Assembly: GCA_026390695.1 (NCBI GenBank)
Contig: JAPLFL010000122.1
Span: 35,093 to 97,880, forward strand
Direction of reading: 5' to 3'
From: Candidatus Kapaibacterium sp.
Lineage (GTDB): Bacteria > Bacteroidota > Ignavibacteria > Kapaibacteriales > UBA2268
DNA: 62,788 nucleotides
How positions within the stretch are numbered: the first letter of the stretch is position 1; every line of letters starts with the position of its first letter. The notes under the pieces were generated by a model, which searched no databases, was not told where the DNA came from, and was given only the letters and a program-made list of their open reading frames with translations. Both the position numbers and the translations under genes were made by a program. Positions 8,896 through 30,254 of the stretch are shown one piece after another.

Positions 8896-11193
8896 ATGTC
8901 AAAAGGCGGAGGAGCCGGTAAAGTATATTTTGTGCTTTATCTCGCAGTTGTTCTCGAATTATTAATCATTATTGTCGAGCGCGACGAAGCCGAAGAAGGC
9001 TTGCTTAGGAAACAAAGAGAATCGATGAAAATCGTCGAAAGTATTCTCTCTCAACTTCAGTCCGGTGCAGGAACAGAAGGAATTAACACCAGACCACAAG
9101 ACGAAATCACTGTACCTGAACCGGGTGTTCCATTAGAACAATTAGGTCTGCAGGGATTAAAAGATTATCGTACCTATTTGGTGGAAGTAGGTGTGACTGA
9201 TGTTAGCGAGGGCATAACCCGAAGGGAAGAGGACGATAAGGAATATAACCAAAAAATTAAGGACATGCTACAATTAGCCAATGTTCGTGATATTCAGTAT
9301 CAGCTCTTCTTCTATCCTATTCCGGGTACAACGGATAAAGATCCGTCTGCTCCGGGATTCCCATCTGATGAAGAATTAAAAAAGAATTTCAAGAATATCG
9401 AAAGCATTAGCATCGGTACAAAAATCCCATCTACTACTCTTAGTGGTGAATGGGAATTTTTAGGTTTACGAAAGCTTATGCTCGACACAGTTGAAACATA
9501 TAAAAATACTGTCAAAAATGCAGAAACCAGAAAAACTGACAAGCTTAGAGTTGCTGCCAATGATATTCTTCCTTTTTATACCGATGCTGCTTTAAATAAT
9601 TCATTAGACATTAAATATGCACCTAAAGATAGTACCATTTTTAAATATTCTGATGAAAAAAGCAAAGAAGATGTTGGTAAAATAGCTGGAGCCACACTGA
9701 AAAAAAGAACTTTTGTTGTGAATTTCAGACCAGAAAGAAAACAGGGCTGGTATAAACTCCGCTTCTTCTCTCAATCAAACAGGATTCTCGGTGTTCGTGG
9801 CGGAGAAAAAGTTGATCAGGTTAGTGATGAAACAACTGTCAATATCGGAACAGTTAAATTAACAGTGCGTGACTTACGTAAGGTTCAAAAAGAATTAACT
9901 TCCAAGTTAGAAAAATATACCTTACCACAACCTGAAGATTTTGATAAAGTTGGAATTGAAGGCGTAGAGAAAATGCTTAACGAAGCCACTGCTAAAGTAC
10001 GTGCTTCTAAAGATGATGATGCAAGAGAAACAATAGGTAAAATCGAACTTTACGGTTATATTCTTCAGTTATTATCACCTGGTCAATCAACAAACTTCAA
10101 ACAGAACAAGGGCTCAATCGAGTTTAACGTTCACGTATTGACTCCTACTCCACCTCCATCAGATCCTACGATTGATGTTCTTTATGAAAAAGAAATCTGC
10201 CGGCTTGATGCAACAAATATTTCCTTCAAAGTAAAAATTGGTAATTATAAAGCCGGTTCAAGCAGACTTACAGGCACTCTAACCGATAAAACCGGTAAAC
10301 AATATGAAGTAAAATTATCACCCGATCCTGCGGTTCAAAATGATCCGAATGCTCCTACTCAGTATTTCATCGGACAGGTTGATTATATTAAAGTCGAAAC
10401 TATACGCGAATATACTCTTAAACTGGAACACACCTTAAATGGTAAAGTTGGCCCGCTCTCGGAACGTGATGTATTTTTATGCCCATCTTTGGATAAAAGT
10501 AATATTGAAAATCTTAGCGACGCTATAGATCTATATTATGGTCAATCTTACGGCTTTAAGTTTACTCCACCATCCGGAACAAAGATTGGTGCAGATAAAT
10601 TTAAAATTACTATAACTCCTTATCAAAGTGGTAGTAATAACCAGAGTACGCCAATTACTTATCAAGGCTATAACCTTGACGAAACCGCTGTTTCCAAAAT
10701 ACCTTGTTCATGGTCTGATGCGGATATTGAAATTACTTGGGAAGACCCTGTATCTCAAAAATCCTTCCCTGTTTATCCAAGGAAGAAGTTTGAAGTGAAA
10801 CAAGAAGCTGTAAAAGTAAATGCAATTTCTAAAAATGCACCTGCTACAGGTTCCGAAGACAGATTGGTCTGCAAGTTCAGTGGCTCAATCGCAGAACTCA
10901 AAGATGTTCCGACGGGTAGTGATAAATTGCCAATTGTTAATATTTCAGCAGTAGTTTCAGGATCAAGTGTAAAAGGCTATTCGGCTTCTACTCCTCAAGT
11001 TGATTACAAAGGCGGAAGAGATTACACCGTTACTTTCTTCTTAACCGGAACAATGGGTGATGAAGATGCAATACGCGGAACAGTCGATATTAAGGTAACT
11101 TGCGAGACTACCAATCCTTGTCAGGAAGGGAAAAAAGAGAAACTAACCAAAACTATTAAATATAATGTAAGTTATACTCCCGGACAGGATTAA
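8896..11193 (+). CDS. GldM/PorM-like inner-membrane protein with long periplasmic part
   Basis: 765 residues. After a short Gly-rich cytoplasmic start comes one TM helix (about 10-27) with an embedded Glu, then an acidic/basic coiled segment (EAEEGLLRKQRE). About 700 periplasmic residues follow: helical up to roughly 230, then beta-rich repeats that look Ig-like. This one-TM plus helical bundle plus beta-domain layout resembles GldM/PorM, the T9SS motor subunit. It is about 250 residues longer, and the usual GldL/PorL partner is not adjacent. GGGAAAA precedes the ATG. First gene of a four-gene envelope cluster; the family call is inference from topology. Confidence 0.5.
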   Translation: MSKGGGAGKVYFVLYLAVVLELLIIIVERDEAEEGLLRKQRESMKIVESILSQLQSGAGTEGINTRPQDEITVPEPGVPLEQLGLQGLKDYRTYLVEVGVTDVSEGITRREEDDKEYNQKIKDMLQLANVRDIQYQLFFYPIPGTTDKDPSAPGFPSDEELKKNFKNIESISIGTKIPSTTLSGEWEFLGLRKLMLDTVETYKNTVKNAETRKTDKLRVAANDILPFYTDAALNNSLDIKYAPKDSTIFKYSDEKSKEDVGKIAGATLKKRTFVVNFRPERKQGWYKLRFFSQSNRILGVRGGEKVDQVSDETTVNIGTVKLTVRDLRKVQKELTSKLEKYTLPQPEDFDKVGIEGVEKMLNEATAKVRASKDDDARETIGKIELYGYILQLLSPGQSTNFKQNKGSIEFNVHVLTPTPPPSDPTIDVLYEKEICRLDATNISFKVKIGNYKAGSSRLTGTLTDKTGKQYEVKLSPDPAVQNDPNAPTQYFIGQVDYIKVETIREYTLKLEHTLNGKVGPLSERDVFLCPSLDKSNIENLSDAIDLYYGQSYGFKFTPPSGTKIGADKFKITITPYQSGSNNQSTPITYQGYNLDETAVSKIPCSWSDADIEITWEDPVSQKSFPVYPRKKFEVKQEAVKVNAISKNAPATGSEDRLVCKFSGSIAELKDVPTGSDKLPIVNISAVVSGSSVKGYSASTPQVDYKGGRDYTVTFFLTGTMGDEDAIRGTVDIKVTCETTNPCQEGKKEKLTKTIKYNVSYTPGQD

Positions 11194-11232
11194 TTAATTT
11201 ATTAGAGAAAAATTTTAGAAAGAGGCATAAAT

Positions 11233-13095
11233 ATGAGAAAAAAACTATATTTCGGATTGATAGGTTTACTGTTTCTAATCCCTTATGTTAAATCAACCGC
11301 ACAAGTTGAAATTCAAAATGATGAAATTGCTAATATTCTTAAGCAAAGTCGAAATTATAGGTATGGCGATATTTCAGTGTTAAGATTAGTTTCTTCGGCT
11401 GAAAAACTTAAACCAATTCTTCAAAAAAGCACTAAAACAGCCGGTCCGGGTAATTCAATTGATGATTGCTTTAAAACTGCAACTCCAGAAGAAATTGCCG
11501 CTGCAGAACAAATTAAATATCAGGCTCGCGAGTTCTTGAAAAATGAAGAACTTGATGTAAAGGGCTTTATGACCGGTCTCAGAAAGAAAAAAATGAAACC
11601 GCTCCCAACTGATGCTTTGGCCAAGTGCTTACTTGACTTTATCAGCGATTCAATGAATACCAAACCACAGGAATTCAACGGTTATATAATTACCAACCGA
11701 ATCAATCCTAAAGCTACTTCTTTCAAGGTTAATATTATTGGCTTCATTGCCGCTTATACCCAAGAAGGAGAAACTGCCAACCTAATAACCGATCTTAAAA
11801 ACGTTGATCCTAATAACGTTTTTTCTCATAGCAGACTTGAATCTTATTATATAAAAATGGATGGCAAAGATTCTTTACTCAAAGGATTTCTTGAAGACGC
11901 CGTTATCAGGCAGTGGGATGTTGTCGATGTAACTCAGAAGTTACAGAATATTGACGATATGGCTCCATTAGTACCCAAAAAATACGGTGTAACTACCTGG
12001 CTTGTTGACCGTCCGGGACCATATCTTGATGCCGAAGATATTCCGAAATTTACAAGAATCACCGAAGGTTTACCTGAAGATTACAAGCCAAACCTTCCTG
12101 CAGTAGCAGCAGGTGTAGCTATTGATACAATTAATTCAATGAATGAAATTACAGTCGGTAATGACATCATTCGTTGGAGAAATTATGAAATCGGGTATTT
12201 GCGCGATAAATCAGGCAATATAAGAATTGATCCTAAAACCAATCAGCCTATGGTTGATCCTAACAGATCTATCCTAAATGATTTCTTCCCAAAATTCGGT
12301 TTTGAATTAAAATACGGCAATGAAAATATCAACATGCCTTCTCTCTGGAGCCAGAGACTTGCTCTCAGCGGTTACCTTGAAGGATGGAAATTAGGAGTAA
12401 TACTTCCACCGACCGATTATGCCAATTCAATGTCAAAATCATTTGGTGATGGCTCTAAACTCGCTTATACAAATTTTGGAATAGTTGGCTCGGTTGACTT
12501 CCCAATTAAAATGTTCAATAGCAAAAGTATTTTTAATCTTTCAGCATCCGGAGCTTTCGGTGAACCAAAAGATTTTGTGAACAAACAGGCAAGAGCCACC
12601 GGAATACGTACTGATAAATACAATATTTATGCCGACTACATTCCACGTTTTGATGCCAGACTGCTTTATACATTTGGTGTTAAAATAGGCGAAAACACTT
12701 CTAATCCTGATGATTATCAATTACGTTTCGGTATCGGTGGCGCAGTATATAGTGTGGATACATATTCAAAAAGACTTGACAGCACTGTTATTGATCCAAA
12801 AACAAGAAAACCAGTTGAATATACAACTTTCTGGAAAGAAACCGATAAATTTATTGGCGGAATCACAGCAAAAATCGACTTTCTTGCCAAAAGCAAGAAT
12901 TTACCACTCGGAATAACCATGCAATATTTTGATGAATCTATTTTATCTGATATATGGGCACAAAAAACCTTAATTGATGATGCACTATTCTTAAGATTCG
13001 ATTTGAATTTTTATTATAATTTAAAAATTAATCCGAGAGCATGGGAAAATACAAGTTTAATCCAGCCAGCTCTCAGATTGATTATTTTGTATTAA
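11233..13095 (+). CDS. Secreted/outer-membrane protein with barrel-like C-terminal half
   Basis: 620 residues; no family recognised. A clear signal peptide occupies residues 1-23 (ends KSTA-Q). The first ~330 residues are mixed helical and polar. From about 350 on, alternating strands rich in Tyr, Gly and aromatic ends (LEGWKLGVILPP, RFGIGGAVYSV) suggest an outer-membrane barrel. The chain ends LIQPALRLIILY, with a terminal aromatic as in barrel proteins. It lies 39 bp after the GldM-like gene with an AGAGG motif before the ATG, so the two are probably cotranscribed and may contact each other across the periplasm. Confidence 0.6.
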   Translation: MRKKLYFGLIGLLFLIPYVKSTAQVEIQNDEIANILKQSRNYRYGDISVLRLVSSAEKLKPILQKSTKTAGPGNSIDDCFKTATPEEIAAAEQIKYQAREFLKNEELDVKGFMTGLRKKKMKPLPTDALAKCLLDFISDSMNTKPQEFNGYIITNRINPKATSFKVNIIGFIAAYTQEGETANLITDLKNVDPNNVFSHSRLESYYIKMDGKDSLLKGFLEDAVIRQWDVVDVTQKLQNIDDMAPLVPKKYGVTTWLVDRPGPYLDAEDIPKFTRITEGLPEDYKPNLPAVAAGVAIDTINSMNEITVGNDIIRWRNYEIGYLRDKSGNIRIDPKTNQPMVDPNRSILNDFFPKFGFELKYGNENINMPSLWSQRLALSGYLEGWKLGVILPPTDYANSMSKSFGDGSKLAYTNFGIVGSVDFPIKMFNSKSIFNLSASGAFGEPKDFVNKQARATGIRTDKYNIYADYIPRFDARLLYTFGVKIGENTSNPDDYQLRFGIGGAVYSVDTYSKRLDSTVIDPKTRKPVEYTTFWKETDKFIGGITAKIDFLAKSKNLPLGITMQYFDESILSDIWAQKTLIDDALFLRFDLNFYYNLKINPRAWENTSLIQPALRLIILY

Positions 13096-13165
13096 TTAAG
13101 AAGTATCATTTATTAAACATTTAATATCAATGATTCATTTTTTAAAAATAAAAGAAGAATTAAAC

Positions 13166-14629
13166 ATGAAAAGAAAATTATTTTTGATTATAGCTTTCAC
13201 AGTATTCTCAGTACTTTCAGTATTTGCCAAAACCAAAGAAGAAGATGAGATGATTAAAAGTTTGAGAAGGATCAACCCTGACGTCGTTAAATATTTCCCA
13301 CGTTGGAAACTTACCGAACCAGACCTTCAGATAAAAGTTTATTTATCACTTCTGACATCCGGTTTTGCAGAGCATCAACTTGATCCTCAGAATATTGTGA
13401 TCATTGCAATACCTCCGACCAAGAAGGATAAATCCTTTGAAATTCTATCCATCACATGCGGAGAAATAACTGTTTCATCGGCAGATATTGAAAGATCTTT
13501 CGGAGGATTAAACTCAAATTTGATAAAGATACTTAATGGTGCCAATACATTTGGCGGAGTCAAATCCGGTGGTGGAAAAACTGGTGGTAAAGCAGGTAAA
13601 AAACAATTAGATGATTATCCACCAAGAGATTATGATTACGAAGATATTCCAATCGAAAGAGAAATTAAACCTGACGAGGCAAAAGTTATTATCAGCTTTC
13701 TCCAACCATCTTTAAAGAAATATAATCAGGCAATTTCTGTCTCTTTGTTCGATCAGTTCTTGCTTTTCGGAGAATCTGGATATTCGATTTTATCATCAAC
13801 CGGTACAGATAATATTGGTTATCCATTTACATATTCCGGAGAATCTCACGTATATGCTACAGTTCCTGTCTTGGAAAATAAGAATATGGAGCTAAAGAAT
13901 AATTTCCCAATATTACTCAATATGCGCCTTGGCGGCTCATACCGAGTTAATTCGGATGCTAATAACGGATTTCTTCAATCAGTTTTACCTTCAAGAGTTT
14001 TAAATGCAGGTCCAGGTGGAAAAATCGGAGCAGGATTTGACTTCTATTATCCTGATATGCCAGAATTAGGAATATCTGTAAATGCAGAATTTCCAATGAA
14101 AAAGTTCGCTGATTTTCATGCAGATGATACTTACGGTTCATATACCGATACAAAACGAGTTAAATTTGTCGATCCTTTAAGAAGAGACACTTTAAGAGTT
14201 TCTCCATTACTCAGAACAACCGGAAACGTGAGCTTGTTCTATAATTTATGGATAGATGAGAAAAATCCAATACATTACTTTAGATTTGATTTAGGATTTA
14301 ATTACTTTGAAATCAAAGAAGGCGGACTTTATCAGGACAACGGCTGGAGTTTTAATCCTAATCCCGGAGTAGTTAAAGGTCTTGCAACTTATAAACCTAA
14401 TGAATTAGGTGACTGGGCATTCTTTAAAGTAGAATACCGCAATCAATCAGCACATCCATTTGGATTAAGCTTTCAATATGCAAATCAAATCGGCTTGGCA
14501 AGAATATATATTCCGGTTTTCAATTGGTTATATCTTGAAGCAAAATATGCAACACCACTCAGAGGTTTAAGACCTTATGAAATAAGAAATTACTTTATGT
14601 TATCGCCTGTTTTAAGATTTGCTATGTAA
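13166..14629 (+). CDS. Outer-membrane barrel-like protein, unknown
   Basis: 487 residues from the ATG at 13166, chosen because it directly opens a signal peptide (MKRKLFLIIAF ... SVFA). An in-frame ATG at 13130 would add 12 polar residues before it. A Gly/Lys-rich linker (GGGKTGGKAGKK) near residues 140-155 separates an N-terminal globular part from a beta-strand-rich C-terminal half. The protein ends MLSPVLRFAM, similar to the QPALRLIILY end of the preceding protein, so the two may be distant relatives. Third gene of the envelope cluster. Function unknown. Confidence 0.6.
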   Translation: MKRKLFLIIAFTVFSVLSVFAKTKEEDEMIKSLRRINPDVVKYFPRWKLTEPDLQIKVYLSLLTSGFAEHQLDPQNIVIIAIPPTKKDKSFEILSITCGEITVSSADIERSFGGLNSNLIKILNGANTFGGVKSGGGKTGGKAGKKQLDDYPPRDYDYEDIPIEREIKPDEAKVIISFLQPSLKKYNQAISVSLFDQFLLFGESGYSILSSTGTDNIGYPFTYSGESHVYATVPVLENKNMELKNNFPILLNMRLGGSYRVNSDANNGFLQSVLPSRVLNAGPGGKIGAGFDFYYPDMPELGISVNAEFPMKKFADFHADDTYGSYTDTKRVKFVDPLRRDTLRVSPLLRTTGNVSLFYNLWIDEKNPIHYFRFDLGFNYFEIKEGGLYQDNGWSFNPNPGVVKGLATYKPNELGDWAFFKVEYRNQSAHPFGLSFQYANQIGLARIYIPVFNWLYLEAKYATPLRGLRPYEIRNYFMLSPVLRFAM

Positions 14630-14687
14630 TTTTATAAAACAATTATTGTAGAAATTAGTTAAATTATTTAAAAAAACCGGAACCACA

Positions 14688-16034
14688 ATGCAGCATAAGG
14701 GGGCATGTAAATTAATCATTTACATATTTATAGTTATTTTTTTAACGAGTAGCAAATTATTTTCAATAAATGAAAAACAAGTAGCCGATTCCGTACAAAA
14801 AGCAAAAGAATTGTTAGAAGATGCTACTGTAAAGTCAGCACAAAAAGAAATTGAAATAACCATCAGAAACGTTGATATTACCAAGTTTCCTGATATTAGT
14901 ATAATCGTAGAAGCCTTCAATATTTTCGGACAGCCTCTTGACACTTTATTACCCGAAAAACTGACAATCGTCGAAAATGGAGTCGAGAAAAAAGTAATTT
15001 CTGTCAAAAAAATCTCTGTCCATGAGCGTGTACCGGTTGATTTTGTCTTTATTATTGATAAAACCGGATCAATGCAGAAATATATAGATGCCGTTAAATC
15101 AAATGTTCAGGTTCTGATGTCATCGCTTGTTAAAAGAGGAATTGATTATCGGCTTGGTTTGGTTCTTTTCTCTGATGCAGTTGAAAAACGATTTCCTTTG
15201 ACAGATAATGTAAACACATTCCTAAGTTGGATAAATCCGGTTGTTGCAGAACGCGGTGGCGATGAACCTGAAAATGCTCTCGAGGCAATCAGAACAGCCG
15301 CAGAATTCAAATTCAGACCCTCAGCCAATAAAGTTGGAATAATTTTAACTGATGCACCTTATCATCAGGCTGGTGAAAAAGGTGACGGTACTACTGATTT
15401 CACAACGGAATCAATGATTAAATTTCTCAAGGAAAAAGAATTTCGTTTGTTTACCATCACTCCCCCACGCCTGAATAATTATCGAAAAATAGCATCCAAA
15501 ACACGCGGGAATACTTATGATATAGAATACCCGTTTTCAAATATTCTTGATAATTTTTCGAATCAATTAACAAATTTATTTGCTCTGAAATATATGACAA
15601 ATCAGCCGGCAATACCGGATTCGATAAATATTGCTCTTCTAAACGAAAAAAAGCAGGAATTAGTTCATAAGGTCATACCGATAGTTGAATTAGGAAGAAA
15701 ATTAATCATTGAAAATTTGTTATATAAAACCAATAGCGCAGAGCTTTCTATGGCTGTACCGGAACTTGAAGTTTTAACTGAGTTTTTAACTAATAAACAG
15801 AATGTTAGAATCATGGTTGAAGGCCATACTGATGATCGTGGTTCAGACAAATTAAACGACAGGCTCTCACTCCTTCGGGCTGAGAGTGTTAAAAGATATT
15901 TAATTAAAAAGAATATAGCTGCTACCAGAATTAAAACAACCGGATTTGGAAAACGCCGTCCCATTGCCGATAACACTACGGATTTTGGCAGGAGTATCAA
16001 CCGAAGAACTGAGATAGTTATTTTATCGAAATAA
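14688..16034 (+). CDS. VWA-OmpA fusion protein (peptidoglycan-anchored)
   Basis: 448 residues. A signal peptide/anchor (about 1-27) is followed by a von Willebrand A domain at about 118-300. Its MIDAS motif DKTGS lies in FIIDKTGSM, with a later T and the LTDAP loop. An OmpA-like peptidoglycan-binding domain at about 335-448 carries VEGHTDDRG, the LSLLRAESVKRYL helix, and NRRTEI. The protein would bind cell wall in the periplasm and offer a metal-dependent adhesion face. Last gene of the 8896-16034 cluster, followed by a terminator. In T9SS the OmpA-like PorE plays an analogous anchoring role, but it lacks VWA. Confidence 0.85.
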   Translation: MQHKGACKLIIYIFIVIFLTSSKLFSINEKQVADSVQKAKELLEDATVKSAQKEIEITIRNVDITKFPDISIIVEAFNIFGQPLDTLLPEKLTIVENGVEKKVISVKKISVHERVPVDFVFIIDKTGSMQKYIDAVKSNVQVLMSSLVKRGIDYRLGLVLFSDAVEKRFPLTDNVNTFLSWINPVVAERGGDEPENALEAIRTAAEFKFRPSANKVGIILTDAPYHQAGEKGDGTTDFTTESMIKFLKEKEFRLFTITPPRLNNYRKIASKTRGNTYDIEYPFSNILDNFSNQLTNLFALKYMTNQPAIPDSINIALLNEKKQELVHKVIPIVELGRKLIIENLLYKTNSAELSMAVPELEVLTEFLTNKQNVRIMVEGHTDDRGSDKLNDRLSLLRAESVKRYLIKKNIAATRIKTTGFGKRRPIADNTTDFGRSINRRTEIVILSK

Positions 16035-16056
16035 TTCTCAATTTTAAAAGTATTAA

Positions 16057-16088
16057 AAAGGTCAGGTAATTATCTGACCTTTTTTTTA
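16057..16088 (+). terminator. Rho-independent terminator closing the envelope cluster
   Basis: AGGTCAG and CTGACCT form a perfect 7-bp stem around GTAATTAT, followed by eight T. It lies just after the VWA-OmpA stop. Confidence 0.9.
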
Positions 16089-16141: not shown

Positions 16142-16759
16142 ATGGAAAATGTGCAAATTGACACCGCAGGTCTAACTTTCGACAAAGTCTGGCTTATGTT
16201 TCAAGAAACAAAAGAAATGTTTAAAGAAACTGATAAAAAGTTTCAGGATACTGATAAAAAGTTTCAGGATACTGATAAAAAGTTTCAGGATACTGATAAA
16301 AAGTTTCAGGATACTGATAAAAAACTCAAGAAGCTCGAAGGGCTTTTTACCAGCCAATGGGGGAAATTAATTGAATCATTGGTAGAGGGCGATTTAGTAA
16401 AAATTCTCAATCAAAAGGGTATTAAGGTGAACAATACTCAGGAAAGAGTTAAAGGATTTCGTTCTGGCAGACAGTTTGAATTTGATATTATTGCTGAAAA
16501 TGGTGAAGAAATAGTCGTTGTTGAAGTAAAGACCACTCTAAGCAACACTGATGTAAAGGAATTTTTAGAAGAATTAAATTATTTCAAAGAAGTTTTACCA
16601 AGATATAAGGAAAATAAAGTTTTCGGAGCAGTTGCCTATTTACGTATTGATGGGAACTGTGATCGTTTTGCAGAGCGTAAAGGTTTATTTGTTATCCGAG
16701 CAACTGGAAACAGTGCTTCTATAATTAATTCTGATAATTTTATACCTAAAGCTTTTTAA
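16142..16759 (+). CDS. Coiled-coil repeat protein with PD-(D/E)XK nuclease-like domain
   Basis: 205 residues. Residues about 29-60 are a tandem heptad TDKKFQD encoded by an exact 21-bp repeat (16229-16312, four copies plus a part). Residues 90-205 resemble the DUF3782/PD-(D/E)XK family: a GRQFEFDIIAENG strand with Asp, then VVVEVKTT (ExK core motif). The nuclease-like core could bind or cut DNA, but activity is not shown. The repeat number could change by slippage in steps of seven residues, keeping frame and heptad register. Stands alone, convergent with glnS. Confidence 0.7.
   Translation: MENVQIDTAGLTFDKVWLMFQETKEMFKETDKKFQDTDKKFQDTDKKFQDTDKKFQDTDKKLKKLEGLFTSQWGKLIESLVEGDLVKILNQKGIKVNNTQERVKGFRSGRQFEFDIIAENGEEIVVVEVKTTLSNTDVKEFLEELNYFKEVLPRYKENKVFGAVAYLRIDGNCDRFAERKGLFVIRATGNSASIINSDNFIPKAF
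16229..16324 (+). repeat. 21-bp in-frame tandem repeat
   Basis: Four identical 21-bp units start at 16229, 16250, 16271 and 16292, each beginning ACTGATAAAAAG. A fifth, partial unit follows at 16313. Each unit encodes TDKKFQD. The exact identity at DNA level implies recent expansion or ongoing homogenisation. Confidence 0.97.
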
Positions 16760-18781: not shown

Positions 18782-21700
18782 TTACTTCACAACATTAAAT
18801 TTGCGGGTAATAACCGTATTGCCTGATCTCAACACAAGAGTATAAACTCCATTTGCATAATCCTGAACATTGATTGCAAGTGGATTTGTACCTTCGTGAA
18901 TTGAATTAGCAGAAATAACTTCAACTTGTTTGCCACTCATTTCGTAAACTACTAATTCACATTGAGTATTCTGTGGTACTTCTAATGTAAAGTTAGCTGT
19001 GCTTACTGCCGGATTTGGCTGTGCTTCGGTTAGGGTCAAACCTGAAATCGGGTTCTCAAATACAACGGTAATCTTGTCAGAGTATTCTGATTGTCCATCA
19101 AGATCAACCATCTTTAAGCGATAGATATAAGTTTCACCGTAGTTAACATCATAATCATTAACCGGACCGTATTCGATAGTTGTATTGCTCTTACCAGCGG
19201 CTTTAACTTCAGAAATATTCTTAAAGGTCAGAATTTCGTTATCTGATTTAATAGCGCGTTCGATAATGAATTTATCAGTATTATCTTCACTCATTGTTTT
19301 CCAGTTCAGATTAACTTTTTTACCTGCTTTAACGGCTGTAAAATCTGATAATTCTACTGGGGTTACGCGTCCACCATTTTTAATAACATAGTCTAATGAA
19401 GCACGTAAAATCTGATCAACGTTTGTAAAGTGGCGCCAATCCAAACCGAAGTAAAGAATGTTCTTTGTGATTGAAGAAGTGGCAACACCCATTAAACTGT
19501 CAGTTCCGGTATCGGTTTTCTTGTAGTTCTTATAGTAAAGTCCAGCACGTGTAAGACCATCACCTGAATTGAGAATTTTAAGAACAGAACCATAAGGAAC
19601 TTCGTCAGCAGCAGGAGGATTATTGAATTTTGAAGCGTCGATTTTCAGAGTCTCATTGGCTCCGACTTGAATACCTGCTACGAAATTGCCTTGATAGGAA
19701 GTTTTTGAAGGTAAGTTATATACATAATTAACCCAAGTTGATCTGAGAACGTTTGCACAGAATGTAGGATCAAATGCTTGGTTTTCTCTCAACATTTCTT
19801 CACTTGCAATAATTAAGTTTTTCTTATCATTGCCTGCTGTTGCACTATTTAAGTATGTATTAAGATCACTTCTCATATATCTTAAATTAAGACCTTTTGC
19901 AACACCATCTGACCAGAACATCGTTCTGTAAGGTACATAATTGACTGAACGTGGTTCCCAGCTATTACGTTCGAACATATCGACGTCGTAACGAGCTGCT
20001 GCAATGTCTGTAAACCAGCCAAATTTCTTTAATGTTAATCTTACTGAATCAGAGTTCAAACTACCTGCAATCTGATCTTGTGTTGATGCATTTGTTAAAG
20101 TTACATAAGAGTTCTCACTTGAAATCATCATTTGGATAGTTGATTTTGGAATATAGAATCTTACGATTTTAGCTTGTTGTAATTTGTTATTATTCAGATT
20201 TTGATCCGAAGCAACTGATATATCAATTTTGTATGGTGGTGTAACGTTTGCTTCCATAGTTGAGAACATAGTAGGTAATGTATATCCCTGGCCACGTAAA
20301 TCACCATAAGATTTTGGATAGAAATCTTTTAGTTTATCACCTGAAGCAAGATTGAATGATAATTCAACGCTTTCACCTGATGGAATACTAACTGTTGTTT
20401 CAACATGTTTTTCAACTGAGTATGTTGAACCATCTGTATTTTGACGGGATATATCAAGATATACTTTAACATCAGATAACTGAAGATTTCCGTTATTGCG
20501 GAGATTTGCAGTTACGTTGATTGGTGCAGGAGCCATGATATATTCTGCATCGGAGAATTGACCAACACCGGCTTGGTATGCTCTTGGTTGATTGATGCTA
20601 AGAACTTCAAGATCGTTTACATAATTTCTACCAACAAATTCACTGGCACCAACATCGGGGCGTTGACCTGCATCTTGACGTGAATTACCATCGATATCTG
20701 TTGTAACGATTGAGTTTTTATCACCGCGATTTGAAAGCAATGAACCCAATGGTGGCTGAGGAATGAGGTTTACTCTTAATTTTGAAGGATAATTATTATC
20801 ATAAATCAAATCTTGAGTAAAATCTCCTTCGATAGAGCTCATATCCTGTCCAGTCCATGACTGCCAGCGATATAGAGTAAAATATTCATTTCTGTATCCA
20901 GGTTCCAGAATATTGTTATTATTATCTGTTTCGACAAAACGGAATGCTGAAGCAACATCAGATGTTTTTGCTGCCCAATAAATGTTTCTGTCAAATGTAG
21001 CACCGCCATTAGATGGACGAACACCGCTATAAAGCACCAATGCGGCGATGCTTGGATCAGGATTTGATCCCGATGAAGGTAATTTCTGAGCATCGTAAGC
21101 AATAGCATTGTTTTTAATTATTGCGCCTTTTGTTTGTAATACTTCTAAAGCTGCTGTATTTCCTGTGTTGGATGCTTGACCATTATCGCTCATGCGAATT
21201 GTATTATTCAATAAATAGTCATTATTTCTGAAATATACATAGTTAGGAGTTAAAGTATTTGCAATAGCATTACGTTCAGTGAATACACCGATACCAAATC
21301 TCTGTGCTGTTGCAGTTCCGCCCAAGCCCCATACAGAGTTATTCATGATTGTTGTATTTTCGGGAACATTCGGGAAATTAACATCTTGACTCTGAGCATT
21401 CTTATAGGTACGACGTGATTGTTCGTCACGAATACCATGAACTACTGTAGGTGAACTTACTTCGCTGATTTCGTTTCCATCGATTTTTACGCCGATATTG
21501 TTATATCCGGGATAAATCGTAGAACCGTAAACAGGTGTACCACCAAGGTAAATACCGGCTGCATCAGTTACACCGTTACCAACTTTGTAAATTCTGTTGG
21601 CTTTGATTGTTGAGTTTTCTTCAAAACCAGCATAGATACCGGCTTTTGCAACATTGTAAATTAAGTTACCGCTGATGAGGTTGTTTGTATTGTAGAATCT

Positions 21701-24469
21701 ACGATAAAGAGCTTCATTGGACATATAAATAGGACCTAAACCTATGCTTACGATTCCATATCCGAAGTTACTGATTTCGTTATTCAAAAATACGTTGTTG
21801 CTGTTTGGAACAGTATCTGCAGGAGGTGCGATTCCACCATTTGGACCGGTTGGGATAACATATATAAGGCATCTTGATTCAATACCTGCTGATAAACCAT
21901 ACCATGAACCGCTTAAATTAGTTGAATCGGCTGAGAATTTAAATCCGTTTGATAAATCCCAAGATACATAAGGAAGAGTAACGTTGTTATTATTTGCAGG
22001 ATTTGTATTATCAATCAAACAGTTTTTAATTGTAATGTTCTTTGATCCGCGATCCAAATAGAAAGCAGCGGCATGAGCATTTGCTTTTGATTGGCTAATG
22101 AATTTTAATGATTTTTGATCGCCACCGTCAAATATGATATAACCATCGGAATTGACATAGCTCTTGTCCGAAGGATACTGGTTGCTAATTGCATAAGAAT
22201 TGGTGTTCATATTGTTTTGACCAAAACGAATACCATTACCGCTTCTGTTCAATAAGTTCACAGTTACACTTGCGCGGGTAAGTGATTTGCGTGGACTTGG
22301 AGCCCATGTAATTGTATTATAAATACCTTTTGATTGATCATAACCAACATTTAGTATTTTTGTTGACATATCTAAGGACTGATCTGAGTTTGCTGAACCT
22401 AAATTGTATGTAGCATCAGTCATATAAAATGTAACCGGTCCTGCTAATCCATAGAGATAAAGTGCATTCATAGCTGAATCTACTGATGGGAAGTTTGGAT
22501 AGTTAAGGCCTGGCTCAACAGTTGTTCCGACTGTATAATATCCTGTTAAACCACCCTTGACGCTGAATGATGAATGAAGTGTATCATTTCCATGCAACGG
22601 ATCATCGGGATGAGATATGATTAGTTCACAATCATAGTTTCCGGTTTCTCTGAGGATACAGTTTTTAAAGCTGTAACGAGCGGTGTTGTATGTTCCTTGA
22701 GAAATATCCTGAAGAACAGTATTTCCACAATCTGAGTAAACCGGCGTTGTCTGTCCGACTTTTCTGATATTCAAACAAATTGGAATCAAGGATACGTCAA
22801 CTGCACCATTGTTTTTAAATTGTCCGATTGGTGTAAACTGACGATTTCCGATAACTGAGGCTCCTGTTGCAGGATAAATCATTTTGTCTGCAGAAAGTTC
22901 GTATTGATAAGCTACTTCGAATGTCCAGTCAGGTGAACCTAATCTTGGAATACTATCGTTATAGCGCTCATTATCAGGATTACTGGTTACATTACATACC
23001 ATTCTTACATGATAAACACCGACGGTCATTGTCTGGAAAGTACCGTAATTTACAAGGATAGCGTCATTGGAATTTGAATTACCGCCCCTTAATACTGCCT
23101 GTGGTGGCGAGTCATAAACATAAGGTAAGCTGTCAATTCTTCTGTTAGAGGCATCATAAATAATAGCATAAGAATAGAAATTAGTAATATCGTTCATACC
23201 TGTATTTTTAACATATCCGGAAACGGTGATTGAATTACCTTGCAAATATTTATTAAAATAAGGTGCTGAATTGGTTTTTGGTGTTTCGATAGATGTTGTA
23301 GCCAAGTCATTTGGCCATGCAACTGTAAAGGATTGTGCAAGTGGAGTTGGTTTACCAATAATGTGAGCGAGAATTTTATATTCACCACCTTTATTAGCAA
23401 CAAAAGTACCATTACCAACCTGAGGAGCTGCAGGATAAGCATAAGCGCCTTTGCTACCGCCCATTGTAACAACTGCACCCATACCACCTACATCGAATGG
23501 CTCATTGAAAGTGCCGGGAGTTGTTCCCCAATATACAGTATCAATTGCTGGAGATGGTCCTACAATTTTAAGATAGCACTGTGTTCCGGCTGGTTGTGAT
23601 GAAGAGAAAATAATCTGTGGCTTGTCGAAAGTTCTCCAATTGCCATTTTGATCATTTCTTGCAACACCGTTGTACATTTCACCGGCAAGAAGTACACTGT
23701 TCTGTGTAGGATAAGTGTCTTTTACTCCACCTTCAATGGTAACTACGAAATCAAAGCAACCACCATAAGGGAAACATTGATAATTAGTCATACCACCGCA
23801 AGGATAAGTGTACCATGGGTGACCTTTGCAAGCATTCATAGGATCGCCGTTTGCATAAACACCGGTACATAAATCATAAGGATTGTAATACAACATATAA
23901 TAGTAATATTCCCAGTCAACGCGCATACGGGTCAAACCAGCAGAGGCTGTTCCGGGACATGTGAAATTACAATTATTAACGCCTGTATTCGTATAATTAG
24001 GATAGAAGCCAGTTTGGGAGACGTTATTGTAATAAGAAATTTGTTCTGTTGTTTGGAATACACCGTCACGGTTAATATCCAAGAACACTCTGGCATACAT
24101 TGTTAAAGAGCCATAGTAGCCATTTGACATGGTCACTTGAACTACCGAAGGAGCTCCCTGAGTAAATTTTCCACCGACAGAAAGTTTCTGATAAGGTGTT
24201 CTGGTGTAGTTAAACGGATATAATCCGTTTGGATAAGTACATGGCCAGTTCATGGTTGTAATTCCGTTTGTTACGATTGCAACGTTAGTGCAATAGGTGT
24301 AACAGCCGCAGTAGTAGTAGGGATAGTTAAACACATAAGCCGGATCGAAAGGCGGTGCATAGCAATAGCCTGTTGGTTCCGGTTGTGCTTTTGCTGTCTG
24401 CATGAAGACTATCATAATCATAGCCACAGCAGCAAGGATTGAGCTTAAATAAGCTCTTGAGTTTTTCAT
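18782..24469 (-). CDS. Giant T9SS cargo: GEVED plus parallel beta-helix protein
   Basis: 1895 residues. Signal peptide 1-28 (ends AKA-Q). Residues about 30-250 are strikingly rich in Tyr and Cys and contain a GEVED-type domain (YARVFLDINRDGVF). CARDB/Ig-like segments follow. Repeated short strands with Asn ladders (about 650-1280) suggest a right-handed beta-helix. A late domain is followed by a type A T9SS sorting tail with PNP, ANGVYTL and a final RKFNVVK. It should be exported, cut and attached at the cell surface. AAGGATT precedes the ATG. The gene stands alone. Substrate unknown; adhesin or surface polysaccharide contact are plausible. Confidence 0.88.
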   Translation of the reverse strand: MKNSRAYLSSILAAVAMIMIVFMQTAKAQPEPTGYCYAPPFDPAYVFNYPYYYCGCYTYCTNVAIVTNGITTMNWPCTYPNGLYPFNYTRTPYQKLSVGGKFTQGAPSVVQVTMSNGYYGSLTMYARVFLDINRDGVFQTTEQISYYNNVSQTGFYPNYTNTGVNNCNFTCPGTASAGLTRMRVDWEYYYYMLYYNPYDLCTGVYANGDPMNACKGHPWYTYPCGGMTNYQCFPYGGCFDFVVTIEGGVKDTYPTQNSVLLAGEMYNGVARNDQNGNWRTFDKPQIIFSSSQPAGTQCYLKIVGPSPAIDTVYWGTTPGTFNEPFDVGGMGAVVTMGGSKGAYAYPAAPQVGNGTFVANKGGEYKILAHIIGKPTPLAQSFTVAWPNDLATTSIETPKTNSAPYFNKYLQGNSITVSGYVKNTGMNDITNFYSYAIIYDASNRRIDSLPYVYDSPPQAVLRGGNSNSNDAILVNYGTFQTMTVGVYHVRMVCNVTSNPDNERYNDSIPRLGSPDWTFEVAYQYELSADKMIYPATGASVIGNRQFTPIGQFKNNGAVDVSLIPICLNIRKVGQTTPVYSDCGNTVLQDISQGTYNTARYSFKNCILRETGNYDCELIISHPDDPLHGNDTLHSSFSVKGGLTGYYTVGTTVEPGLNYPNFPSVDSAMNALYLYGLAGPVTFYMTDATYNLGSANSDQSLDMSTKILNVGYDQSKGIYNTITWAPSPRKSLTRASVTVNLLNRSGNGIRFGQNNMNTNSYAISNQYPSDKSYVNSDGYIIFDGGDQKSLKFISQSKANAHAAAFYLDRGSKNITIKNCLIDNTNPANNNNVTLPYVSWDLSNGFKFSADSTNLSGSWYGLSAGIESRCLIYVIPTGPNGGIAPPADTVPNSNNVFLNNEISNFGYGIVSIGLGPIYMSNEALYRRFYNTNNLISGNLIYNVAKAGIYAGFEENSTIKANRIYKVGNGVTDAAGIYLGGTPVYGSTIYPGYNNIGVKIDGNEISEVSSPTVVHGIRDEQSRRTYKNAQSQDVNFPNVPENTTIMNNSVWGLGGTATAQRFGIGVFTERNAIANTLTPNYVYFRNNDYLLNNTIRMSDNGQASNTGNTAALEVLQTKGAIIKNNAIAYDAQKLPSSGSNPDPSIAALVLYSGVRPSNGGATFDRNIYWAAKTSDVASAFRFVETDNNNNILEPGYRNEYFTLYRWQSWTGQDMSSIEGDFTQDLIYDNNYPSKLRVNLIPQPPLGSLLSNRGDKNSIVTTDIDGNSRQDAGQRPDVGASEFVGRNYVNDLEVLSINQPRAYQAGVGQFSDAEYIMAPAPINVTANLRNNGNLQLSDVKVYLDISRQNTDGSTYSVEKHVETTVSIPSGESVELSFNLASGDKLKDFYPKSYGDLRGQGYTLPTMFSTMEANVTPPYKIDISVASDQNLNNNKLQQAKIVRFYIPKSTIQMMISSENSYVTLTNASTQDQIAGSLNSDSVRLTLKKFGWFTDIAAARYDVDMFERNSWEPRSVNYVPYRTMFWSDGVAKGLNLRYMRSDLNTYLNSATAGNDKKNLIIASEEMLRENQAFDPTFCANVLRSTWVNYVYNLPSKTSYQGNFVAGIQVGANETLKIDASKFNNPPAADEVPYGSVLKILNSGDGLTRAGLYYKNYKKTDTGTDSLMGVATSSITKNILYFGLDWRHFTNVDQILRASLDYVIKNGGRVTPVELSDFTAVKAGKKVNLNWKTMSEDNTDKFIIERAIKSDNEILTFKNISEVKAAGKSNTTIEYGPVNDYDVNYGETYIYRLKMVDLDGQSEYSDKITVVFENPISGLTLTEAQPNPAVSTANFTLEVPQNTQCELVVYEMSGKQVEVISANSIHEGTNPLAINVQDYANGVYTLVLRSGNTVITRKFNVVK

Positions 24470-25353
24470 AGTGAATCCTTAAAAAGTAAAACAAAAAACA
24501 TATATTAAAAATCAAAATATTCTACATCACAGAATCAATAACCACAGAAATCAACTTTTGTTACAAAAATCTGAAAACTTTTTTTTTGGGGCATATTTTA
24601 AACATTACAAATTCAATATTTTTCATAAAAATTATCATCGTAAATCAAATCAACAGCTGTCATTTGTGCGCATGCAGGAATCCCCTTCTTCATCTGTCAT
24701 TCCTGCGAATGCAGGAATCCCCTTCATTTACCTGTCATTGCAGCGCATGCAGGAATCCCCTTCGTTCTTCATAATAATCTTCCATCACTTACTTTGGAAA
24801 ACATAAAATAAAACTCAGAAACTATATTCCAAAATAAGTTCATCAATGCAAATAAGCAATTTATCTGCCACAATCCTTAATTTTAAGTCTAACTTCAAAA
24901 ATATATTACAAAATTTAACAATTAATAAAAAAACTTCATATTATAGAGCAAACAAATTTAAAATCTTTTTATCAATTATTTCATTAATTGTTATTAATAA
25001 TAAGAAATAATTATCAACAATCAAATTATGAAGTTTAATATTAGCCATCTGCTTTTTTTTTCTTAATTTTTGAACATTATTCCTCAACTGATCACTTTTT
25101 TAAACTTAAATATTTTGAAGATTAAATGAATCACTTTAATTCGTAATTTTTTCTAAAAGTGAACAAACACATTATTTATCAATTTTTTAAATAATTTTTA
25201 ATTCAAAGTTTGAAATTATAAGTTCTTATTCTGAGGCTTTGGCACAATTTTATATATGTTTGAAATGAAATTTTACTGCGGTAAGTAATTATTTCGATTT
25301 TTTTTCGTTAATTCGGAGTGTTAATTGATGTCAAATATAAAAAAGGATGAATA
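24470..25353. other. Long AT-rich intergenic region between T9SS gene and fliL
   Basis: 884 bp with no supported gene. 24658-24762 holds three palindromic repeat copies, listed separately. The remainder is AT-rich; a distant 10-bp inverted pair AAACTTCATA/TATGAAGTTT (24931 and 25027) is the only other structure noticed. The divergent promoters of the T9SS gene and fliL must lie here. A TTGGCAC near 25240 lacks the GC of a sigma-54 -12 element. Confidence 0.5.
24658..24762. repeat. Three CCTGCGNATGCAGG-type palindromic repeats
   Basis: Three 30-bp copies start at 24658, 24695 and 24733. All begin TGTCATT and end GCAGGAATCCCCTT. The middle copy is a near-perfect palindrome around CCTGCGAATGCAGG; the flanking copies have decayed left arms. 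The 7-8 bp spacers rule out a CRISPR. Related copies occur at 40978 and 62589. Confidence 0.9.
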
Positions 25354-26102: not shown

Positions 26103-27140
26103 ATGGCGGACGTACTTTCGCAATATGAAATAGACAGCCTGCTCTCTGAGATGACGAGCGGTAGAGTTGATGTTGATGATCTGGTTGAAGGAAGACTTTA
26201 TAAAACCGATGTATCTAACTATGACTTTCGCCGTCCGAACAGAATCTCAAAGAATCAGGTTAGAACTTTACAAACTGTTCATGAGAGTTTTGCTGAGGTT
26301 TTCGGATATTATCTCGTATCTAAGCTTCAGACGGTGGTTTCAATCACTGTGACATCAGTTGATCAGCTTTTTTATTCTGAGTTTATTTTATCGGTTTCCA
26401 ATCCAAGCTGTCTTTATGTTTTTGATCTTGAAGGCAGCGATGGTAGTGGAATTCTCGAAATCAGCCCTAATCTTGCCTTAACAATTGTTGAAAGACTTCT
26501 TGGTGGATCTGCAGAAGCTCCCATTCACTCTCGCTCAATCACTCCTATCGAACAGGCTGTTGTGAGGAATATTGTCGAGCATGGGCTATCTGATTTGCGG
26601 GAAGCTTGGAGATCAATTGCCGATATTAAGTTTAAATACCAGCGTCTGGAAATGGAAGCGGATTTCGTACAGATTGCTCCTTCTTCAGAAATTGTTGTTG
26701 TTGTCTCTTTCGATGTTAATATAGGTACACACACATATTTGATGAATCTCTGTTTTCCTACTTTTGCTTTGGAAGAAGTTTTAGCAAGATTGAACCGTCA
26801 GCATGTGACATCCACGGCAGTTAAACAGACAGCAGCAAGATTAAAAGAAAATATTGAAGTGATGAAACAGCAGATGTCAACCACTTATTTGAATGTGGTT
26901 GCCGAACTGGGAAAAACCTCTTTGACGGTTTCGGAAATTATGGAATTAAAGCCTGGGGATGTGATAAAACTTAAGAAAAGAGTTAATCAGGAAATCGAAA
27001 TAATTATTGCCGGTAAACGGAAACTGGCAGCCCGTCCTGGAAGTGTTGATTTAAAAAAGGCAGTAAGAGTTACTCGTCCACTTACCGAAGATGATTTAGT
27101 AGAACAAGATATTTCATATAAAGAAAAGGAAAACAAATGA
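26103..27140 (+). CDS. fliM: Flagellar motor switch protein FliM
   Basis: 345 residues. The N-terminal LSQYEIDSLLSEM motif is the CheY-P docking helix. The CheC-like middle domain (about 45-230) includes YDFRRPNRISKNQ and the LLGG turn, and the C-terminal FliN-like SpoA domain (about 250-330) has LKPGDVIKL. It forms the C-ring that sets rotation direction. Its stop overlaps the fliN start (ATGA). The preserved CheY-docking helix fits the CheY gene 2.7 kb away. Confidence 0.97.
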   Translation: MADVLSQYEIDSLLSEMTSGRVDVDDLVEGRLYKTDVSNYDFRRPNRISKNQVRTLQTVHESFAEVFGYYLVSKLQTVVSITVTSVDQLFYSEFILSVSNPSCLYVFDLEGSDGSGILEISPNLALTIVERLLGGSAEAPIHSRSITPIEQAVVRNIVEHGLSDLREAWRSIADIKFKYQRLEMEADFVQIAPSSEIVVVVSFDVNIGTHTYLMNLCFPTFALEEVLARLNRQHVTSTAVKQTAARLKENIEVMKQQMSTTYLNVVAELGKTSLTVSEIMELKPGDVIKLKKRVNQEIEIIIAGKRKLAARPGSVDLKKAVRVTRPLTEDDLVEQDISYKEKENK

Positions 27141-28076: not shown

Positions 28077-29267
28077 TCAAGTAACTTTGACTAAATTTTT
28101 GGGTAATCTGAAAATAAATTCCGAACCTTCCCCTAATGTACTTTCAGCCCAGATTTTGCCTTGATGTTTATCAATAAAGTCTTTACACATGATGAGTCCT
28201 AATCCTGTACCTTTTTCTTCGCCCGTTCCGATTGTTGTATGACTAACATCCAAACGAAATAATTTGGCAATATCTTCGGGACTCAAACCAACTCCACTGT
28301 CTCTTATTCCAATTTCAATAAAATCATCGCCGGAAACAGCCTTAATTTCGATCCTGCCTCCCCGTGGTGTAAACTTTACTGCATTTGAAGTTAAGTTCCT
28401 TACTACGGTTGTTATCATGTTATTATCGGCATATACAAAAGTATTTGCAGGAATTGAAGAGAACAAATTTATATTTTTATCCTCGGCATTCATTTTTAGC
28501 AGGTCAATTGTTGTTTGTCCAACAGTTGAAAGATCCATTAAATCAGGCTGAAAGGGAATATTCCCTCTTTGAGAGCGAGCCCAGGTGAGTAAATTTTCTA
28601 ATAAATTATAGAGTTGTTTTGCTGATTTATTCAAATCAAAAACAAATTCCTTAATTTCTTCCTGACTTAAATCATCCCAGATAGATTTGAGAAAATCGGT
28701 TACAGTCAAAAGAACCGAAAGAGGATTCTTCAGGTCGTGTGCTATTATGGAAAAGAATTTATCTTTTGTTGCATTTAGTTCTTTAAGTTTTGTTTCGGAT
28801 TCACGGAGAGTCATTTCGGCTTTTTTCCTCAATTCGACTTCCTCTAAAGCCAATTCTTTAGCCATTCTGTGTTCGCGGATTCGATTTGATAATTCCGATA
28901 CATCTTCAATGGAAAAAATCGCAAAATACTGTCCAGCTTTTTGAGCAGGCAATGCTGAAACAGTAGTCTGATGAATTTGTCTTTTAGCACCCTTTTTAAA
29001 AGATGGAAATAAAGAACCGTGAATCTGAGAAGAAAACACAGTCGGAGGGCCACCTTGAAAAATTTCATCTATTCTTGATTTATATTTGAACTCACTAATT
29101 CTTGGATTATATTCAAGTATGGAATTATTTAAAATATCTTTTTGTTTGATATTTGTCCAGATTTCAAGTTGAGTATTCCAGAAAATCACTTCGTAATTTG
29201 AATCGATGACACATATACCTACTGGTACAAAATTATATAGAGAGAAATAATTTGCCTGATGTTCCAT
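28077..29267 (-). CDS. PAS-domain sensor histidine kinase
   Basis: 396 residues, no TM helix. An N-terminal PAS domain (about 8-125; LYNFVPVGICVIDSN, VIFWN) is followed by a coiled linker and a HisKA domain with the phospho-acceptor in SIIAHDLKNPL. The HATPase domain carries an N box with NLTSNAVKFTP, the G1 motif DSGVGL and the G2 motif GTGLGL. A cytoplasmic sensor kinase. It is last in a cheY-cheC-kinase operon, 6 bp after cheC, with no output regulator of its own fused. Confidence 0.93.
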   Translation of the reverse strand: MEHQANYFSLYNFVPVGICVIDSNYEVIFWNTQLEIWTNIKQKDILNNSILEYNPRISEFKYKSRIDEIFQGGPPTVFSSQIHGSLFPSFKKGAKRQIHQTTVSALPAQKAGQYFAIFSIEDVSELSNRIREHRMAKELALEEVELRKKAEMTLRESETKLKELNATKDKFFSIIAHDLKNPLSVLLTVTDFLKSIWDDLSQEEIKEFVFDLNKSAKQLYNLLENLLTWARSQRGNIPFQPDLMDLSTVGQTTIDLLKMNAEDKNINLFSSIPANTFVYADNNMITTVVRNLTSNAVKFTPRGGRIEIKAVSGDDFIEIGIRDSGVGLSPEDIAKLFRLDVSHTTIGTGEEKGTGLGLIMCKDFIDKHQGKIWAESTLGEGSEFIFRLPKNLVKVT

Positions 29268-29273
29268 AATTAA

Positions 29274-29873
29274 TTACAGCTCCCCAACATATTTATCGAT
29301 TAAATCTTTAAAAAGCTGCAGAGAGCCGAGTTCAACAATAAGAACAAAATCGCCACTAATATTTATTTCTTCAATAATAAAAGTTGTCCCGGCTAAGATT
29401 AAGATAGAATTATCTTCCGGTGAAGATGTTTCGAACAACTCTTTCACAAATCCTTCTTTGTAAGTAGGAACAGTAAAAGAAAGATTTACTTTTAACTGAT
29501 TACAAAGAGTGCCAATCAGAGAATTGAGAACAATATTTCCGATTTCCGATAATGTCCCCACCCTTATTGCATCGAAATCTTCCAAATCGGATTCTTCGTT
29601 TGTAAATAACGAGACTAATTTACTGGCTGATCCAGTAGGGAAAATTAATTTGCAAGCACCGTTAATAAACCCATTGAAAGCCAGATTTACGGCAGAAAGA
29701 TTTACATTTGTACCATAAAAATTCTCATCAAGATTCTCATTTTTAATTATCCTGAGATTCGGAACATTAAGATGAATATGGTGGCCTATAATTGTGTTAA
29801 GTAGATTTGCAGCTTTTCCAACCCCCATATTGACGATTTCACGAAAAGCATCACGTTGAATTTCATTAAACAT
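29274..29873 (-). CDS. cheC: CheC-type CheY-P phosphatase
   Basis: 199 residues with both CheC active-site helices: REIVNMGVGKAANLLN (ExxN) near the N-terminus and LSEIGNIVLNSLIG (ExxN) at about 110. CheC dephosphorylates CheY-P and can bind CheD. Two intact sites argue for CheC over the single-site CheX. It follows the CheY-like gene by 15 bp and precedes the histidine kinase by 6 bp, so all three are likely one transcript acting on the same phosphoryl flow. Confidence 0.88.
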   Translation of the reverse strand: MFNEIQRDAFREIVNMGVGKAANLLNTIIGHHIHLNVPNLRIIKNENLDENFYGTNVNLSAVNLAFNGFINGACKLIFPTGSASKLVSLFTNEESDLEDFDAIRVGTLSEIGNIVLNSLIGTLCNQLKVNLSFTVPTYKEGFVKELFETSSPEDNSILILAGTTFIIEEINISGDFVLIVELGSLQLFKDLIDKYVGEL

Positions 29874-29888
29874 TATTTCTCTCGAATT

Positions 29889-30254
29889 TTAGTTCATATT
29901 AAGAGCCAATTTAATTACATTTATTAAATGATCCGGTAAAGGTGGTTTATTAATAAAATCAATAGCACCAAGATTAAGGCATTGCGTGCGGGTTGTTTCC
30001 TGAATATCAGCAGAAAGAACGATGGTCGGAATTTTAATTCCTCGATCTCTCATTTGTTCAAGAACTTCCTGCCCCTCAACTTCAGGCATTAATAAATCGA
30101 GTAAAATGCAATCAAATGGTTGCTCGAATATAAGTTCCAATGCCTGTCTTCCATTAACGGCTTCAGTAATTTCAAAAAATTGTGGTAATAACATTCCCCT
30201 GATTTTTTTCCTCGATATAATTGAGTCATCGACTATAAGAATTCTCTTTTTCAT
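29889..30254 (-). CDS. CheY-like single-domain response regulator
   Basis: About 121 residues of receiver domain only. The acidic pair is in LIVDD, the phospho-acceptor Asp in ILLDLLMPE, Thr/Ser in IVLSAD and the Lys in FINKPP. The ATG at 30254 is used; the longer frame begins with TTG at 30284. It may be the motor CheY or the partner of the adjacent kinase. The adjacent cheC and nearby fliM favour a motility role. Confidence 0.9.
   Translation of the reverse strand: MKKRILIVDDSIISRKKIRGMLLPQFFEITEAVNGRQALELIFEQPFDCILLDLLMPEVEGQEVLEQMRDRGIKIPTIVLSADIQETTRTQCLNLGAIDFINKPPLPDHLINVIKLALNMN

Follow-up and report, generated by a model that had tools for sequence, protein, structure and literature searches.

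A four-gene cluster, here called A-B-C-D, was analyzed in a 62,788-nucleotide stretch of Candidatus Kapaibacterium sp. DNA (contig JAPLFL010000122.1; hereafter, the window). Its products probably form the shaft, the barrels and the anchor of an ion-driven trans-envelope motor, a derived one of the GldLM type, which most likely serves the type IX secretion system (T9SS). The host genome encodes a T9SS translocon and cargo, and textbook GldL, GldM and GldN were not found in it. The cluster has the following features:

8896-11193, plus strand: A, open reading frame (ORF) of 765 amino acids (aa); inner-membrane shaft candidate with an N-terminal transmembrane (TM) helix, an alpha/beta region (residues ~60-415) and three immunoglobulin (Ig)-like domains (~420-765)
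11233-13095, plus strand: B, ORF of 620 aa; exported, with an N-terminal region (~30-270) and a FadL-like C-terminal beta-barrel (~270-620)
13130-14629, plus strand: C, ORF of 499 aa; exported, with an N-terminal region of ~180 residues and a C-terminal barrel paralogous to that of B
14688-16034, plus strand: D, ORF of 448 aa; exported, VWA plus OmpA-type (peptidoglycan-binding)
16055-16084: symmetrical stem-loop with T runs, likely a (bidirectional) terminator as read from the sequence

An earlier note on this DNA had described four trans-envelope genes, and ORFs A to D, on one strand with short gaps (39 bp between A and B, 34 bp between B and C, and 58 bp between C and D), bear this out. Its individual parts also stand: an inner-membrane protein with one hydrophobic helix and a long periplasmic chain (A), two exported, barrel-ended proteins with similar terminal strings (B and C), and a closing peptidoglycan-binding VWA-OmpA protein (D). 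By eye, the N termini of B, C and D resemble signal peptides. The second methionine of C, at 13166, precedes a better signal peptide and is the likely start. Upstream of A, dnaJ ends at 8321, with 574 bp between the two genes. The proposed closing terminator fared less uniformly. A stem with a T run is present, which the terminator scan calls on the minus strand alone, and the 6 terminator-like sites of the region are not in excess of shuffled sequence (5.3).

Relatives of A were sought in a named genome collection of 84,980 species, and the best 80 of the 145 stretches obtained were used. The order A-B-C-D on one strand recurs in 64 of these 80 loci. This conservation is far beyond chance and agrees with the earlier suggestion of a single unit. 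Twelve of the 16 loci without the full order lie at contig ends. Six loci hold A only, with 0.4 to 1.4 kb of contig remaining, and in four others the contig stops within A; L160 shows a split A followed by B, C and the contig end, and L191 shows A-B-C near a contig end. In L184 no C was called, and L174, L177 and L192 show A-B-C on contigs that would accommodate D. The locus titles name Kapabacteria, Ignavibacteria (also Ignavibacteriae and Ignavibacteriota), Chlorobiota, and unclassified Bacteroidetes and bacterium metagenome-assembled genomes, with a few for Chloroherpeton, Melioribacter, Desulfobulbaceae and Bradyrhizobiaceae; the last two were taken for misnamed bins.

Outside the host order, A-B-C-D is found again in families f9 (L051, L053, and L054) and f7 (L063 and L065), the barrels of f7 being weaker. 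Family f15 (L056 to L060) has A-B-C without D. In f14/f24 (L067, L069, and L125), a GldL-like gene, L, is followed by A split in two and then by B-like, C-like, B-like and C-like genes, and in f17 (L068) one B-like and one C-like gene follow L-A. The B-like and C-like barrels of f7/f15 were identified through protein family f28 (E values to 4.7e-91), and those of f14/f17/f24 through protein families f36 and f37, linked to B at an E value of 1.1e-9 and to C at 7.4e-13. In these comparisons, A of L052 is truncated by a contig end, and for L064, where the ORF filter had lost A, the positions of A and L come from coordinates.

GldM has one N-terminal TM helix and a periplasmic chain with several Ig-like domains, and the AlphaFold2 (AF2) model of A shows the same architecture. 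Built from a 36-row alignment, this model (mean pLDDT, 85.4; pTM, 0.59) consists of a 50-residue N-terminal helix (residues 6 to 55), the alpha/beta region and the three Ig-like domains. Judged by eye, A has no cleavable signal peptide. Its single hydrophobic helix contains Glu21 and is accompanied by an ERD motif at residues 28 to 30. Conservation of this TM motif is very strong, with Tyr11, Phe12, Tyr15, Glu21, Arg29 and Asp30 kept in 101 of 102 A-type proteins, the remaining one having a gap. At 765 aa, A is indeed much longer than canonical GldM, as the earlier note had remarked (510 to 590 aa in 14 proteins). Pfam and NCBIfam scans of A, B and C gave no meaningful match, and when profiles of A, B, C and L were searched against PDB sequences, all matches were at chance level. 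With the A model, Foldseek/VIA matched the Ig-like domains (residues 420 to 762), the part from 60 to 415 being barely probed, and no GldM or PorM chain was among the matches listed.

The earlier note considered GldL missing; GldL-like genes are in fact present in the host genome (G000), outside the cluster:

La, G000:C121: 463 aa, GldL-like, found by L profile A1; unlinked to A in the host
Lb, G000:C73 (L108:9554-10516): 320 aa, GldL-like, found by profile A1; no A-type neighbor
Lc, G000:C108: GldL-like, found by profile A10
X, G000:C108, beside Lc: one-TM paralogue of A

Of 118 genomes of the phylum, 16 carry L and the same 16 carry A, at E values below 1e-15 for L and below 1e-6 for A; one further genome for L and seven for A, at E values of 0.02 to 0.1, were left out of this count. 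Ignoring kinship, the Fisher probability of this co-occurrence is 4e-20 for the 118 genomes and 3.7e-5 when only the 19 genomes of the class that lie outside the order are counted. Of the 58 class-sample genomes with A, 57 also carry L, G107 (67% complete) being the exception. Moreover, L adjoins A on the same strand in all 10 loci of families f7, f22, f24, f17 and f14 (about 0.5 kb away in L061), and one second copy in the host order, L050, also has L beside A. La has the GldL/PorL core, a helix pair with a conserved glutamate in the second helix. This residue, Glu352, is glutamate in all 45 L-type proteins, and its Lc counterpart is glutamate in 23 of 24. Since profile alignments of the helix pair align the two, Glu352 appears equivalent to GldL E49, which a passage of PMC8986121 describes as essential for secretion in Flavobacterium johnsoniae.

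These data bear on an alternative view, in which the four proteins merely bridge the inner membrane, the wall and the outer membrane as a static scaffold, with no motor. In the host order no motor gene is linked to A, which could then be a tether. Against this stand the co-occurrence of L and A, their adjacency in other families, and the conserved glutamates in membrane helices of both proteins, and we regard a scaffold as the least probable of the readings.

The derived-motor reading draws further on remote homology. Canonical families were compared with 61 profiles, of which 8 were purpose-built and 53 came from clustering of these loci. Several duplicate the module's own families or are portions of them (f1/f28, C-like; f2/f29, B-like; f3/f30, A; f33, A and X mixed; f36/f37, barrels), f35 represents the same five Lc proteins as A10, and A9 contains Lc; the truly unrelated controls thus number fewer than 53, and the top GldL ranks are not independent. 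Canonical GldL ranks Lc first, at an E value of 1.5e-5 (twice, with the same five proteins), followed by the L superset (4e-5), L alone (1.6e-3), a control (0.004) and a sixth profile at 0.15. The GldL set of 14 rows gave the value quoted here, the weaker one; a set of 12 rows gave 1.6e-7. L and Lc are tied by hidden Markov model searches (E values of 7.5e-13 to 1.3e-8), and in a separate search the Lc profile reaches host La at 7e-8. Canonical GldM ranks X first (E value of 2e-4 over 161 columns), with the A family of f15 second (0.017) and a control third (0.022). X is in turn linked to A at E values of 2.2e-12 and 3.7e-9 (83 to 98 columns of one Ig domain; 96 to 98% probability) and, through the TM motif, at 1e-4 over 15 to 16 columns. 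In f7/f22, X and A are BLAST-related, to an E value of 1.7e-27. Because X links to both, A can be placed by this chain of profiles, and not by direct comparison, as a putative remote member of the GldM superfamily. The GldM relation claimed in the earlier note is thereby retained in remote form, through X; as a direct A-GldM relation it is not significant.

Lc and X appear to be a second, less derived pair. X lies beside Lc in 20 of 22 host-order genomes, including the host (exceptions, G143 and G071), and at L272, where Lc was lost to the ORF filter, X is present beside its place. Lc also follows an LptG-like permease gene, identified by eye, in five loci (L269, 2665-3747; L270; L286; L288; and L118). 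In f22/f7 the gene row is Lc-X-L-A-B, then C, with D also in f7. As one row in these sister families holds Lc-X together with the L-A-B-C-D genes, both pairs are probably components of a single machine. A more specific and rather doubtful version is a two-engine T9SS in Kapabacteria and their relatives, in which Lc-X and La-A would act jointly and the second shaft would plug into a barrel pair held by the VWA-OmpA anchor, replacing the KN ring (that of GldK and GldN).

SprA (TIGR04189), which the earlier note had taken to be missing, is encoded at G000:C99. All 20 class genomes searched have it, as do 91 of the 118 genomes of the phylum sample, including all 29 of the class. The C-terminal domain (CTD) for sorting (TIGR04183) was detected in each of the 22 genomes searched (20 from the class), and in the host 150 of the 286 candidates were scored, all of which matched; this family also matches 3 of 14 control genomes, 1 of them over the cut-off. 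Passages of PMC8754138, PMC11205867 and PMC12421860 place the T9SS in the Fibrobacteres-Chlorobi-Bacteroidetes group, and a passage of PMC8857248 notes sorting-domain xylanases in related bacteria. The window itself holds three ORFs that are likely T9SS cargo with Por_Secre_tail-type ends, at 18782-24469 (minus strand, with GEVED), 39071-40909 (plus strand) and 56671-60633 (minus strand, with HYDIN/ASH-like domains). PF18962 matches one of them over the cut-off (E value of 2.2e-8) and two just below it (4e-5 and 9.5e-6).

Canonical GldM (TIGR03517) has no match in the host at an E value of 1 and exceeds the cut-off in none of 20 class genomes, one of which matches below it at 0.1. Canonical GldN (TIGR03523) was found in none of 20 class genomes at 0.1 and in both Bacteroidia controls; its lack agrees with the earlier note. 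Canonical GldL (TIGR03513) is without a match in the host and exceeds the cut-off in 28 of 118 genomes, none of the class; its matches in class genomes G009, G019 and G007 are below the cut-off and outside the helix pair. A full second gldKLMN locus, also envisaged in the earlier note, finds no support in the host, where canonical GldL, GldM and GldN are unmatched and no genome-wide GldK search was made. Nor is A-B-C-D itself such a locus: it holds no GldL, and B, C and D have no significant GldK or GldN link.

A further tie to the T9SS is a PorU-like gene. In 16 of 22 host-order genomes, the next gene after La, in the same orientation, encodes a protein of 1,740 to 1,942 aa that is BLAST-related to that of the host. 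In the host protein a C25 peptidase domain was identified (1.3e-62), and a sorting domain matches below cut-offs. PorU and PorU2 are the best models, below their cut-offs, in all three copies scanned. The row in G148 is Lc-X-La-PorU-like, and as Lc-X-L is common to this row and that of f22/f7, it joins the PorU-like gene to the A-B-C-D half.

At the outer membrane, B and C are paralogues, as judged from profile-profile comparison (hhalign probability, 99.25%; E value of 5.5e-20; 248 aligned columns spanning the barrel halves of the two), so the likeness of their terminal strings, QPALRLIILY and SPVLRFAM, is not chance. The AF2 model of B has a mean pLDDT of 67.2, poor in the N-terminal half and mostly >70 in the barrel. 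In VIA this barrel, predicted to be FadL-like in fold, aligns to the FadL-family channel 3bry_A (Z, 14.5; root-mean-square deviation [rmsd], 4.5; 243 residues aligned), to barrels of Bacteroidota barrel assembly machinery complexes (Z, 12.4) and to type 9 translocon chain 6h3i_F (Z, 11.7; rmsd, 4.2; 199 aligned), which we take to be PorV. The earlier parallel between PorP and these two proteins is not supported. No significant profile link to GldN, GldK or PorP was found for either, the best weak matches being signal-peptide ends or short stretches; canonical PorP ranks B first over just 28 to 31 columns at the signal-peptide end (E values of 0.001 to 0.002), and the NCBIfam scan left both without a match. 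The comparison set comprised seven PorP proteins, reduced from 13 by length and locus, all of which pass TIGR03519; one GldK and one GldN were confirmed by family scan, and the remaining ones were assigned by gene position.

In D, Pfam identifies VWA at 118-277 (E value of 1.6e-13) and OmpA at 346-439 (1.4e-19). All 76 D-type proteins keep D124 and T126 of a MIDAS-like DxTGS/T motif and the OmpA residues D382 and R397. D was rejected as PorE, the counterpart suggested previously, as its OmpA part alone matches NF052230, with 65.8 bits versus a cut-off of 600.

Taken on their own, a FadL-like barrel in B and an OmpA-type anchor in D would suit an energizer of envelope stability or outer-membrane maintenance in a Tol-Pal/TonB-like role, with D as a Pal-like anchor and B and C as channels for small molecules or lipids. 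The position of Lc after the LptG-like permease gene points the same way. The PorU-like neighbor and the SprA/CTD context argue against it, as does the lack of a Pfam MotA/ExbB match at an E value of 0.1 for La, Lb and one Lc, the TolQ/ExbB profiles not having been compared directly. Such a role is very unlikely.

In the motor proposed here, A would be the moving shaft, B and C periplasm-facing outer-membrane barrels, and D a peptidoglycan anchor, with the unlinked La, through its invariant membrane glutamate at the GldL E49 position, as the stator. Protons would pass at La Glu352, and an A dimer would turn or flex inside a ring of La. The Ig-like shaft of A may then transmit this motion to B and C at their periplasmic parts, and D would fasten the assembly to the cell wall. 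The machine, in place of GldLM and its KN ring, would power secretion by the T9SS or move surface proteins that the T9SS has exported.

Several observations weigh against this model. The Foldseek/VIA matches of A are generic Ig-like ones, and its direct comparisons with GldM are not significant (E values of 0.14, 0.038, and 0.016). X of the host order and f9 alone reaches GldM at 0.0021, and L alone aligns to GldL over 23 columns only, at 1.6e-3 with a control at 0.004. La has about four hydrophobic segments versus two in canonical GldL, and by coordinates it is not beside A in the host order, f9 or f15. The PorU-like neighbor is absent in 5 of 22 order genomes, with 1 more at a contig edge, and from all four f9 loci of La; the host protein scores 255 bits against a cut-off of 420 for PorU and 234 against 450 for PorU2. 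Finally, both L and A are undetected, at the thresholds used, in 13 of the 29 class genomes with SprA. In these genomes the T9SS may not be strictly dependent on L-A, or the motor may be still more diverged.

The last point, together with the patchy presence of L-A within f14, though all sampled f14 genomes have SprA, keeps viable a machine added for movement. Here, La-A would form a gliding or adhesion machine driven by the proton-motive force, moving surface proteins held by B and C apart from the secretion motor, and Lc-X or something else would energize the T9SS. Lc-X is the closest pair to canonical GldLM and is present beside La-A in the host genome, and D carries a VWA domain, a type common in adhesive contacts. 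On the other hand, in f7/f22 a single row contains both pairs and the barrels, and La has a PorU-like protease gene as neighbor in most genomes of the order. We consider this a possible but unlikely explanation, and a derived motor for the T9SS remains the preferred one.

Other features of the window lie outside the cluster. A nuclease-like ORF (Hjc, E value of 5e-5) follows directly at 16142-16759 (plus strand) and contains, at 16215-16323, a repeat of about five in-frame 21-bp units encoding KKFQDTD. A gene for the flagellar switch protein FliM at 26103-27140 (plus strand) suggests that the host may have a flagellum besides the envelope machine, and response regulator, CheX/CheC-like and kinase genes occupy 28077-30284. 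Short tandem arrays are found at the window start (1-269; 122-bp unit, TAGAAGG-rich) and at 24657-24767 (38-bp unit with the palindrome-like CTGTCATTCCTGCGCATGCAGGAATCC).

To our knowledge, the T9SS motor has been studied only in Bacteroidia, and no published description of the A-B-C-D module turned up in literature searches. The analysis points to a group with SprA and large CTD cargo in which canonical GldL, GldM and GldN were not detected, and it names a conserved candidate replacement. This makes testable what the motor really needs, how coupling to the outer membrane works when GldN is absent, and how rotary motors of this kind diversify. Similar to GldLM/PorLM, the proposed system has a single-TM shaft with Ig-like periplasmic domains, a helix pair with a conserved glutamate in L, and a genome that also encodes SprA, CTD cargo and a PorU-like protease. 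It differs in that the host genome is without a TIGR03517, TIGR03513 or TIGR03523 match, L is unlinked and has extra N-terminal hydrophobic segments, a glutamate lies inside the A helix, there are two L-M pairs, and the operon has barrels and a VWA-OmpA protein instead of K and N. Like PorP/SprF and PorV, B and C are predicted barrels, and B aligns to 6h3i_F, though better to FadL-family channels; unlike them, B and C have a large N-terminal region and no significant profile link to the seven canonical PorP proteins. D, in turn, differs from PorE in having a VWA domain N-terminal to OmpA and in scoring far below the PorE cut-off, and shares with it the C-terminal OmpA-type domain.

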